From contig CADCNV010000011.1 in NCBI GenBank assembly GCA_902802825.1, positions 1 through 42,998 of the forward strand: a DNA stretch of 42,998 bases, given 5' to 3'. Of the stretch, positions 14,499 through 17,816 are shown one piece after another (within the stretch, counting starts at the first letter, position 1; each line of letters opens with the position of its first letter). The position numbers were made by a program, and so were the translations under genes. The notes under the pieces are model-generated. The model searched no databases and was not told the DNA's origin. It saw nothing but the letters and a program-made list of their open reading frames with translations. The stretch is from an uncultured bacterium (GTDB lineage: Bacteria > Cyanobacteriota > Vampirovibrionia > Gastranaerophilales > Gastranaerophilaceae).

Positions 14499-15761
14499 CT
14501 ATTCTATATTCTTTTTTGATATTACAACAGCGTTAGAAATAGCGATTCCTCCAGGTTGTGGCGGCTTGTTGACAATAGAACCATTTACATACATTACTGT
14601 CGATCCTCCGCCGTCTAAATTTATAGCATTTACGCAACCAAAAGATTTCATAAGAGAGGCAAGCTCATTCAGTGTAAGCCCTATTGAACTTCCCTCTCTG
14701 CCATCTACTGCAACCAAAATTAAGTTATTATCCCTTGTATAACCAACAGCACTTCTTGGGTTTCTACCCCCTATTGCAAGAAGTTTTTCTTCAGAAACAT
14801 CAATAAATACATCCCCGTTTTTTACAAGATAAGGGCCACCGCTTATTATATGCTTAACATTTTCCCATTTCGGATTAACGCCTAAAGTCATTTCAACAGC
14901 ACCGGCACCAAATAAAGCACTTAATTTTTCTTTAGGACCGACCAAAACATATCCGTCAGAAGGAATTTTCATAGGATTTGCTGACGCAGCAAGTATTCGG
15001 TTGCCTGATATCTGAAGCTGAGCACCTCCCTTTGGAGATACAGGAGAATAAGTGCCCCAATCTTTTGAATATGCAATTACATATGAAGACAACATTCTTG
15101 GCTGATTTATATTGTCAATTTTTACATCTGCTCCGTTCCCATAAATATGCCCGTCAAATTCAACCCTGCTGACATCATAACCATCATCAAAAATTGCTAA
15201 TGCAACTCTGTTATAAACAGGACCCGTATAAATTTTGCCGTCAATCATCAATGTCCCCAACGGGATTCCGGACTGCGGTTTGAAAAAACCACCATTAAGA
15301 GCAACAACAGAATTCGTACGACCGGCAATTGTTCTTAGCGTTGTTTTGTGATGTAATGTATGATTAGATGCCATTGCAGGCATAAATTCATAATCTTTTG
15401 CAATTTCAGAGTTCATTTCTACAACGTTTATTCTGACAGGACGACCGGCATAATAACGAACCATCTTTATATGCTTAATTCCCGGAACTACATCGTTCAT
15501 TTGTAATCCCGAATACTTGACCCCCATCTTATAATCAAATAATCTTTGCCGGTATTCAGGATTCATATTTTCCTTTAATTTGTCAGCTGAGCGATAAATC
15601 GCAGGACTCGAAATTACGGTATTTGCAATTAAATCATTCGCATAAATCGGAGAATGAAATGCAAATTGTGACAGAACCAAAGTAATTAAAATAGAAATTG
15701 CTAATACAAATTCGCCCGTTCTGCCTGGAAGCTCAATACGATTAAAAGTTAGTGTATCCAT
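14499..15761 (-). CDS. Phosphodiester glycosidase family protein (NAGPA-like, DUF2233)
   Basis: Probable extracytoplasmic hydrolase of the family related to the mammalian mannose-6-phosphate 'uncovering enzyme'; bacterial members act on envelope or sporulation glycans, and the substrate here is unknown. It has 420 residues. An N-terminal hydrophobic segment (residues 17-36) ends SPIYAND, a plausible signal cleavage. The catalytic fold carries ALNGGFFKPQSGIPLGTLMIDGK (about 150-175), NPRSAVGYTRDNNLILVAVDGR and NAINLDGGGSTVMYVNG, the family's nucleotide-like GGG motif. The gene is convergent with the SMC-operon protease, nine bases apart, and appears monocistronic with a long structured leader. 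Confidence 0.88.
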   Translation of the reverse strand: MDTLTFNRIELPGRTGEFVLAISILITLVLSQFAFHSPIYANDLIANTVISSPAIYRSADKLKENMNPEYRQRLFDYKMGVKYSGLQMNDVVPGIKHIKMVRYYAGRPVRINVVEMNSEIAKDYEFMPAMASNHTLHHKTTLRTIAGRTNSVVALNGGFFKPQSGIPLGTLMIDGKIYTGPVYNRVALAIFDDGYDVSRVEFDGHIYGNGADVKIDNINQPRMLSSYVIAYSKDWGTYSPVSPKGGAQLQISGNRILAASANPMKIPSDGYVLVGPKEKLSALFGAGAVEMTLGVNPKWENVKHIISGGPYLVKNGDVFIDVSEEKLLAIGGRNPRSAVGYTRDNNLILVAVDGREGSSIGLTLNELASLMKSFGCVNAINLDGGGSTVMYVNGSIVNKPPQPGGIAISNAVVISKKNIE

Positions 15762-15880: not shown

Positions 15881-16028
15881 TTTTAACATTATTTTCTAGT
15901 GTCTGCAACCCTTTAACGACAAATATTTTACAAAACTAAATAATGGCAAAAGTACACTATATAAGGATTGTAGATATTACACTTTTAAAATTACCCAATT
16001 GAACTGTTTTTATAAAATTTATTTATGA

Positions 16029-16034
16029 TATAAT
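16029..16034 (+). promoter_or_regulatory. -10 element of the SRP RNA gene
   Basis: A perfect TATAAT seven bases before the first base of the SRP RNA, so transcription would start exactly at the RNA 5' end. No convincing -35 hexamer sits at the correct spacing. The 150 bases between this and the divergent promoter at 15870 hold nothing else that I can identify. Confidence 0.6.
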
Positions 16035-16040
16035 AAAATT

Positions 16041-16295
16041 GCCGTGCTCCACGGGGTGTTGCGAACTCTCGACCTGAAGCTTACGCAGGGTGCAGAGCCT
16101 GTTGTGAGGGCTTTGCGGGAGTAAATGAACTTAATATAATCGTAGATAGCAATACTTGATGTGGCGTGAAATTTCGAACCGTGTCAGGGGGGAAACTCAG
16201 CAGCACTAAGAAAACCTTTGCGGGTGCATCATTTGTTGAAGGAGAAAATATTAAAGGATTTTACTACTGCAAATTTCGATAGACAGTGGCACGGT
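16041..16295 (+). ncRNA. ffs: Signal recognition particle RNA, large bacterial type with Alu domain
   Basis: RNA scaffold of the SRP that binds Ffh for co-translational membrane targeting. The ends pair: GCCGTGCTCCAC at the 5' end with GTGGCACGG at the 3' end. The S-domain tip at 16181-16210 has the conserved symmetric-loop sequence GTGTCAGG ... AGCAGCAC, capped by a GAAA tetraloop on a GGG/CTC stem, where most bacteria have GGAA on TCC/GGA. The flanking GAACC before and AAACC after the tip match the Bacillus-type RNA. The first 100 bases form an Alu-like domain (ACGGGGTGTTGCGA, ACCTG...CGCAGGGT). At about 255 nt it is the long form, not the roughly 100-nt 4.5S form. It ends in TTTT after the closing stem. 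Confidence 0.93.
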
Positions 16296-16360
16296 TTTAA
16301 ATATAAATAAGCAATTTTTCATATTAATTTTTCTGATGGTACTATAAATAGGAGTTTACA

Positions 16361-16738
16361 ATGACAAATCATTTAGAATTTTACCGCTGTGAAGTTTGCG
16401 GGAATATTGTTCAGGTAATACATTCAGGAAATGGAGAGCTTGTATGCTGCGGGAGCCCTATGCAGATGCTTACGGCAAAAACAAAATCCGAAGAAAAACA
16501 AGAAAAACATGTTCCTGTTTTTATCAGTGACAATGAGATCCAAATAGGATCCGAACCGCATCCGATGAGTGAAGAACACCATATATCATTTATCGAAACT
16601 ATCAGCGAAGACGAAAAGAGCGTGCAAATCAAATTTCTGGATATTAACGAATTCCCAAAAATGATAACAAACAACACTGCATATAATACGGCATACGAAT
16701 ATTGCAATATCCACGGACTATGGCAGGGAGAAAGATAA
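16361..16738 (+). CDS. dfx: Desulfoferrodoxin (two-iron superoxide reductase)
   Basis: Reduces superoxide to hydrogen peroxide without releasing oxygen, a protective enzyme of anaerobes. It has 125 residues, family length. The N-terminal desulforedoxin-like iron centre has Cys10, Cys13, Cys29 and Cys30. The C-terminal neelaredoxin domain has all five ligands of the catalytic iron: His50, His67, His73, Cys115 and His118. The lysine next to the first histidine, important in catalysis, is present (EKHVP). The Shine-Dalgarno AGGAG precedes the ATG. It stands alone downstream of the SRP RNA. Confidence 0.97.
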   Translation: MTNHLEFYRCEVCGNIVQVIHSGNGELVCCGSPMQMLTAKTKSEEKQEKHVPVFISDNEIQIGSEPHPMSEEHHISFIETISEDEKSVQIKFLDINEFPKMITNNTAYNTAYEYCNIHGLWQGER

Positions 16739-16841: not shown

Positions 16842-17816
16842 TTATCCTTTTTCTTTATTATTACGATATCCTATTCCTGCACGATAACCTGAAATTGAAT
16901 ACAACAACGGCAGTGACGGCTCTATCCACTTCAAGCCGGACAATAATGATATTGTTGCAATGTCATCGGTATGTAAGCTCAGATCAAGCAACTCCGGAGT
17001 TCTTGTATCTGGTTTATTATCCTTGGAAACTAAAGGATTTATAATTTTTTTACCAATATAATTTGCTATAATACTACCGCCAATCACGCCTGTCAGCAAA
17101 ATACCGCCCAACATTCCAAGACACCTTGCGGATTTTGATTTTATGTTCATTTTTTCTAACACGCCAAGAGCAACACCAGCACCAATATTACACAGAAATA
17201 TATTTGCAAGATACTGATAAATCCCTTCTTTTAATTTATTAGGAACATTATCTTTCCATTTTTTTTCGGTGAGCTTATCCCCGATAACTCCGCCTGCTAT
17301 CCCGCCTGCAACAGGAATTGCGCCATAAACAGAAAGCCAGCCGATTTCTTTGAATATATCTTTTGAACCAACGCTTACAGGAGGCGGAATCAATTTATTT
17401 GCGACCTCAGAATGTTCAGGGTTGCTAAATAATTTATTTATTTCTTTTAATGATAATACTTTTGTTTTCGCTTTCTGAAGAATTTTTTGTAATTGCTCGC
17501 CCACATTATTATTTTTCACATATTCATCAACAATCTCAGTATTACTCTTTTTAATTTGAGATAATGTCTTTGAAACAGAGCGTCCTGTAACGTATGAGGC
17601 AATTTTCGGGGCCATCGCAGCAGAAATCGCAGTAGCGGCAAGAGTAGTTCCTATTTTTAGTGCACTTTTCCTACGTTCATCTTTTGGGGATTTTTTTACA
17701 GTATCAGTAAATATCGCTGCCGCACCCAATGTTAGCATATAGGGAACATTTTTATTTATTTTCGCTGTTAAAAGCGGTTGATCTAAGTATTTACCAATTG
17801 CACTTATACGGGGCAT
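16842..17816 (-). CDS. Unknown glycine-rich multi-pass membrane protein, coupled to a DtxR-family regulator
   Basis: I do not recognise this 324-residue protein. It has several hydrophobic, glycine-rich stretches: about 28-36, 58-75, 165-185 (GGIAGGVIGDK), 205-225 and 240-262 (GMLGGILLTGVIGGSIIANYIG). The GxxxG-like spacing resembles packed helices or glycine zippers. A basic, helical soluble segment lies at about 80-150. No histidine/cysteine-rich metal site is obvious. Its start overlaps the stop of the DtxR/MntR-type regulator by one base, and no other promoter is visible, so it should be metal-regulated with it. A role in metal homeostasis is inferred from context only. Confidence 0.6.
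   Translation of the reverse strand: MPRISAIGKYLDQPLLTAKINKNVPYMLTLGAAAIFTDTVKKSPKDERRKSALKIGTTLAATAISAAMAPKIASYVTGRSVSKTLSQIKKSNTEIVDEYVKNNNVGEQLQKILQKAKTKVLSLKEINKLFSNPEHSEVANKLIPPPVSVGSKDIFKEIGWLSVYGAIPVAGGIAGGVIGDKLTEKKWKDNVPNKLKEGIYQYLANIFLCNIGAGVALGVLEKMNIKSKSARCLGMLGGILLTGVIGGSIIANYIGKKIINPLVSKDNKPDTRTPELLDLSLHTDDIATISLLSGLKWIEPSLPLLYSISGYRAGIGYRNNKEKG

Follow-up and report, generated by a model that had tools for sequence, protein, structure and literature searches.

Signal recognition particle (SRP) RNA assists in the delivery of membrane proteins. In Escherichia coli, the S domain of the SRP RNA is the binding site of Ffh, and its GNRA loop promotes the encounter of Ffh with FtsY. 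Bacterial SRP RNAs that carry an Alu domain in addition to the S domain are routinely labelled 'large type' by the NCBI pipeline.

The Alu domain of the Bacillus subtilis RNA has been described as acting by 'dock-and-block', and bacterial and archaeal Alu domains are reported to have in common a UGU U-turn and a loop-loop contact of five continuous pairs (PMC8137916). The U-turn motif is given as UGUNR (PMC2905702), and the HU protein HBsu is reported to sit on the Alu RNA of B. subtilis (PMC8230904). It is stated to be unsettled whether the Alu domain belonged to the SRP from early on and was lost by most bacteria, or was gained separately by some bacteria and by archaea (PMC2905702, section 7), and the short form of diderm bacteria has been argued to be ancestral (PMC1586193). 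No paper on the SRP RNA of Gastranaerophilales was found in the literature searched, with PMC7203096, which mentions both 'SRP RNA' and 'Melainabacteria', left aside.

Here we show that positions 16042-16294 (+ strand) of a 42,998-nt stretch of DNA (the window) from a Gastranaerophilales host, a non-photosynthetic relative of cyanobacteria living in the gut, are a large-type SRP RNA gene of 253 nt. Taken together, the evidence makes it very probable that this is a single large-type gene with a transcript of about 253 nt, an S domain that binds Ffh and an Alu domain that slows translation, and that the long form is ancestral in the phylum.

A large-type SRP RNA gene in Gastranaerophilales

The Rfam model of large bacterial SRP RNA, RF01854, covers 16042-16294 end to end, over model positions 1-256 (all 256), with 63.1 bits against a cut-off of 60 and an E-value of 2.8e-9 in the 1.62-Mb genome, where this is the only matching place, the SRP RNA gene being single copy. 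The model of small bacterial SRP RNA, RF00169, is confined to the inner part, matching 16148-16243 (50.7 bits, cut-off 40, genome E-value 2.6e-10), and the Rfam clan filter applied to the window printed RF00169 alone. The comparison of the two models proposed in the original prediction was thus divided, with bits favouring the large model and the E-value the small one, and the identity of the RNA was settled by its relatives, not by the models alone. The prediction itself, that a relative of cyanobacteria has a long SRP RNA with an Alu domain, is borne out by the end-to-end match and by covariation in the alignment described below, and its description of 16041-16295, including the paired ends and the GAAA loop on GGG/CTC, was accurate. 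The locus combines an end-to-end match above the gathering score, paired ends, hairpins 3 and 4, and an S domain with a GNRA loop. A phage search found nothing.

The features of the locus, in order of position, are:

14499-15761, - strand: phosphodiester-glycosidase gene, divergently transcribed, on one side of the SRP RNA
16026-16034, + strand: extended -10 promoter-like box TGaTATAAT, 7 nt before the RNA, recognized by its sequence
16042-16048, + strand: helix 1, 5' strand, pairing with the 3' strand at 16288-16294 (+)
16053-16069, + strand: Alu hairpin 3 (stem 16053-16056/16066-16069, loop L2 16057-16065), from RNAalifold
16069-16072, + strand: UCGA at the expected UGUNR site, between hairpins 3 and 4
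16073-16089, + strand: Alu hairpin 4 (stem 16073-16076/16086-16089, loop L1.2 16077-16085)
16099-16103, + strand: base of helix 5, 5' strand, pairing with 16282-16286
16113-16141, + strand: distal helix 5, 5' strand, pairing within 16244-16272
16148-16243, + strand: S domain (helix 8 and extension), the predicted Ffh-binding part, RF00169 50.7 bits
16192-16195, + strand: GAAA apical tetraloop, on GGG/CTC (16189-16191/16196-16198)
16295-16298, + strand: short U tract directly after helix 1, a possible terminator end
16361-16738, + strand: desulfoferrodoxin gene, on the downstream side of the SRP RNA

With RF01854 (the B. subtilis scRNA type), the RNA of the window shares its length, helix 1, hairpins 3 and 4, the long helix 5 and the S domain, but it scores just 3 bits above the cut-off, has UCGA in place of UGUNR, a shortened L1.2 loop with weak L2-L1.2 pairing, and GAAA where the consensus is GGAA. 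With RF00169 (4.5S RNA, the type of photosynthetic cyanobacteria), it shares the core and internal loops of the S domain, whereas its flanks of about 106 nt (5') and 51 nt (3') are paired to one another and form an Alu domain, and the RNA probably does not end just outside the S domain, judging from covarying pairs that reach 16042 and 16294. The RNA is of a known kind, and the variant in the window is divergent.

Folded as a single sequence, the RNA was no more stable than its shuffles (z -0.68) and the large-SRP fold was not returned, so an alignment was used instead. From 174 places, 140 distinct long RNAs were obtained and thinned to 80 rows. The row starts were located with a regular expression in which several Alu letters are fixed; this omits the loci of families f7, f9 and f13, of genus g17 and L040, and makes some columns necessarily invariant. 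In setting the row ends, pairing with the first five letters was one of the criteria, a choice biased towards helix 1, but the ends agree with the Infernal coordinates in all 21 rows that have both. RNAalifold run on the 80 rows yielded the large-SRP topology: helix 1, hairpins 3 and 4, long helix 5 and helix 8. The structure comprises 72 pairs, with 93.4% of the cells paired compared with 75.0% after shuffling and 40-50% after sliding, the latter contrast being inflated because the structure was derived from these same rows. Changes on both sides occurred in 54 of the 72 pairs, a count reached in none of 500 shuffles. The support for the structure from the alignment is far above chance.

The support differs among the helices (all counts over the 80 rows). 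Every cell is paired in helix 1 (7 pairs, 3 of them changed on both sides; ends chosen partly by pairing), in hairpin 4 (two pairs changed on both sides) and in hairpin 3, where the changes are one-sided only, so that its register rests on RNAalifold. At the base of helix 5, 99.7% of the cells are paired, with U-A/C-G and G-C/A-U exchanges, and 22 of the 23 pairs of distal helix 5, distributed over three helices, changed on both sides. Hairpin 4 and helix 5, which are independent of the choice of row ends, covary clearly.

In the S domain, GTCAG and AGCAGC are invariant across the 80 rows. The apical loop reads GAAA in 50 rows (including all 16 of the same genus), GGAA in 29 and GAGA in one. 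The stem below it, GGG/CTC in the window (G-C, G-U and G-C pairs), is paired in every row, its three pairs having changed on both sides in 39, 39 and 11 rows. The GAAA loop on this stem, initially singled out as notable, is therefore not exceptional: most relatives have it, and the stem varies while pairing is kept. Loops of the GNRA type besides GGAA are known in SRP RNA, namely, GAAA in yeast (PMC5115805) and GRRA in archaea (PMC2905702), which makes the GAAA loop ordinary.

Among the proteins encoded by the host genome are Ffh, including its M domain, an FtsY-like GTPase and two members of the HU family. Since the core is conserved and both partner proteins are encoded, the S domain would bind Ffh, and the GNRA loop would aid the meeting of Ffh and FtsY. 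The Alu domain, closed by helix 1 and connected via long helix 5, would, as has been shown for B. subtilis, reach the factor-binding site of the ribosome and slow translation while the nascent chain is being targeted. By analogy with HBsu, an HU protein is a possible partner of this Alu RNA. One genome of family f48 (G406, 92% complete) has an SRP RNA match, and in it the Ffh model finds an FtsY-like match (E 8.8e-53) and no Ffh.

Judging from the position of the promoter-like box and the paired ends, the RNA of about 253 nt would be transcribed from a promoter just upstream, and the site of this promoter agrees with the mature length of about 250-270 nt expected of a large-type RNA. In 47 of the 79 rows whose upstream sequence is long enough, the pattern TGnTAnnnT ends 7-9 nt ahead of the RNA (shuffles predict 2.5), and the 12 nt 3' of helix 1 are 60% T over the 80 rows. 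Together, the promoter box and the T-rich 3' flank suggest one transcript that starts at the Alu end.

The desulfoferrodoxin gene lies directly downstream of the SRP RNA, on the same strand and at most about 360 nt away, in 10 of 19 same-genus loci (L077-L095); in the remaining loci it is upstream, farther away or past the contig end (positions compared by hand). Positions 16842-17816 (- strand) of the window encode a 324-aa protein with no Pfam match, of which copies 81-84% identical lie near the SRP RNA in two same-genus genomes.

The loosened Alu domain

The UGUNR motif is present in the Rfam consensus and in those loci of families f7, f9 and f13 that were read. At the corresponding site, the 80 rows have UCGA (40), UUGA (35), UGAA (3), UUUG (1) and UGCA (1). 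Compared with the closed Alu fold of the B. subtilis crystal structure, the window thus lacks the UGUNR U-turn and, instead of five continuous L2-L1.2 pairs, has at most three weak pairs or two G-C pairs.

Contact between the two loops varies across the alignment. Four rows of families f44 and f45 have 6-7 pairs. A longer L2 loop is found in 33 of the 80 rows, most of which have at least 4 bp with L1.2, and the letters are exchanged between the loops: AGCG faces CGCU, UGCG faces CGCA (12 of 12), and GGCG faces CGCC or CGCU, the exceptions being two AGCG rows that face CGCC, with one pair broken. In the other 47 rows, including the window, L2 is shorter, and the best contact common to all is GC against GC or GU. 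The L2-L1.2 pairing potential was 8.96, compared with 8.15 for re-dealt partners (none of 500 as high), an excess that related rows can yield without structure and that comes mainly from the longer-L2 type. A register in which L2 positions 17-19 pair with L1.2 positions 37-39 was rejected because it breaks in rows with AAT and AAGC.

Given the absence of UGUNR and the weak L2-L1.2 pairing, the fold of the Alu domain and its effect on translation may differ from those in B. subtilis, and the Alu domain in the lineage of the window may be eroding. Archaeal SRP RNAs with an eroded small domain, as described in PMC2905702, similarly combine lineage-specific loss of UGUNR with erosion of the small domain; the RNA of the window differs in being bacterial, with no helix 6 seen and helices 1, 3 and 4 kept.

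Two readings of this pattern were considered. The first is that Gastranaerophilaceae have a working but 'open', loosened version of an ancestral Alu domain, intermediate between the closed form of their cousins and the complete loss in sister families; we advance it tentatively, as a plausible reading rather than a probable one. The second, which we consider unlikely, is that the domain, though still transcribed, is a vestige that has stopped slowing translation and is heading for loss, as might be read from the replacement of UGUNR with UYGA in 75 of the 80 rows, the drop in loop-loop pairing from 6-7 bp (f44, f45) through 4 bp to about 2 bp in the type represented by the window, and the lack of an Alu domain in two sister families. 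However, helix 1 and hairpin 4 still covary and key columns are invariant family-wide, which calls for continuing selection.

Distribution and history of the long form

Among 386 genomes drawn from the phylum, RF01854 matched in 296 (E<=0.001), with 166 above the cut-off; for the order of the window, the respective counts were 140 and 120 of 146 genomes, the 140 including six genomes of families f2 and f3 that were matched mainly through the S domain. All 21 genomes of the same genus, the window's own included, have a match. Four genomes of the same family have none at E<=0.001 (G069, G176, G311 and G379), at least one of these being a miss of the model because a full Alu domain was seen by eye in G176; G168, with 44.8 bits, falls under the cut-off, yet also has a full Alu domain by eye. 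A scan with an Alu-core pattern identified at least 114 stretches. Among the matches listed, most are titled Candidatus Gastranaerophilales or uncultured bacterium, and a few Clostridia, Heliobacteriaceae or Fusobacterium. The genus of the window appears to be a gut and rumen lineage of Gastranaerophilales.

Outside the family, long forms were found in ten genomes of families f43-f46 (116-155 bits), in one genome (G440, 124 bits) of the neighbouring family f51, and in eight genomes of the deep, non-photosynthetic families f7, f9 and f13 (138-174 bits). Reading of the loci assigned the short form to families f2, f3, f4, f5, f6, f16, f47, f48, f49 and f50, the SRP RNA match of f50 falling below the RF00169 cut-off, and nine genomes with photosystem genes have the short form and no long form. 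In G401 (f44), the RNA is likewise short, at 127 nt, and folds as an Alu-less rod. G392 (f45) was read as reduced, yet it scores 62.7 bits over 195 nt, above the RF01854 cut-off, and its assembly has 7% contamination, so that its reduced state is doubtful.

A tree of RpoB and Ffh was built for 30 genomes, six rows of which have under one third of the columns; it is largely supported, with frames chosen by similarity and the root placed at f7/f9/f13/f16. The order of branching is f7, f9, f13 and f16 outside, followed by the photosynthetic genomes, then f47/f49/f4/f6/f48, then f5/f50/f51, and then the order of the window, which contains f43-f46, f3, f2 and f1. The tips with the long form are f1, f43, f44 (G397), f45 (G388), f46, f51 (G440), f7, f9 and f13. 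Forcing the nine long-form genomes of the order into one clade costs 143.6 log units and is rejected (p-AU 7.2e-46), although the group was named after the tree had been seen. The long form is thus present in the deepest non-photosynthetic lineages of the phylum and recurs here and there in later ones, among which short and reduced forms are nested, a pattern that favours an old domain with repeated loss.

If only losses are admitted, a count by hand on the tree gives 8-9, or 5 without the five doubtful rows (G392, G401, G389, G021 and G408). Unordered parsimony needs 7 changes between long and short forms (6 if G392 is long), or 4 without those rows, so that repeated gain, or exchange between lineages, in place of loss is possible. 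Most likely, the Alu domain and with it the long form go back to the phylum ancestor and were lost several times since, on the simplest reading about five to nine times.

This history bears on how the RNA was first characterized. 'Bacillus-like', as applied to the long form with pairing ends, is better read as retention from the phylum ancestor than as a special sharing with Bacillus. The distribution, called noteworthy in the original prediction if the host is a cyanobacterial relative, is of more interest than the tetraloop, with long forms scattered across the order, f51 and the deep lineages, and it bears on an open evolutionary question. The main value of the group is that the Alu domain is kept, loosened and lost side by side within it, and the phylum offers pairs of near genomes in which the cost of losing the domain can be asked. 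If the domain of Gastranaerophilaceae is indeed open and working, the phylum would show that bacteria had an Alu domain ancestrally and lost it repeatedly, with intermediate stages still preserved.

The short forms of close relatives also bear on whether the functional RNA in the window might be a small SRP RNA of about 100 nt, processed from a longer precursor whose flanks are leader and trailer. The lower E-value of RF00169 is compatible with such processing, as is the fact that f2 and f3 have the short form alone and, immediately ahead of its S domain, a promoter-like box. We nevertheless regard it as very improbable: the flank-to-flank pairs (helices 1 and 4 to 7 of the structure count) covary in many relatives and few columns are as strongly conserved as those of the Alu hairpins, as would not be so in a disposable leader. 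The site of the promoter-like box in the window, ahead of the Alu end, likewise argues against processing. Lateral transfer of the long form from a gut Firmicute, for which the shared habitat and, among the matches listed, one Clostridia and one Heliobacteriaceae title (such titles are often wrong) could be adduced, is scarcely credible because the Alu sequence, compared by eye, shifts gradually from f7 via f51 and f44 to f1, in agreement with the tree, and the best RF01854 matches are in deep non-photosynthetic relatives. Retention of a long form inherited within the phylum remains the preferred reading.

Reduced SRP RNAs that keep an extended arm and lack hairpins 3 and 4 occur at L061 and L319 (f5), L227 (G401, f44) and L226 (G392, f45); they adjoin long-form lineages, and the three that were folded end to end (L061, L319 and L227) are 127-143 nt long. 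At L315 (G445, f51, same class), the SRP RNA has no 5' Alu hairpins and shows a helix-1-like closing stem (GAACCACAC/GTGTGGTTC) over two 3'-side hairpins, which looks like a rebuilt or permuted end domain, in one 87%-complete assembly. Genome G389, which has a good long form, contains a second, diverged SRP-like match (L228, contig C76, 53.9 bits) that may come from contamination. One conserved gene, which we take from a translation by eye to resemble an acyl-CoA thioesterase, closely follows the 3' end of the short SRP RNA at L047, L218, L219 and L222 (f2, f3). In family f24, the 99%-complete genome G159 has no photosystem reaction-centre match, and the other two members of the family that were tested have one.
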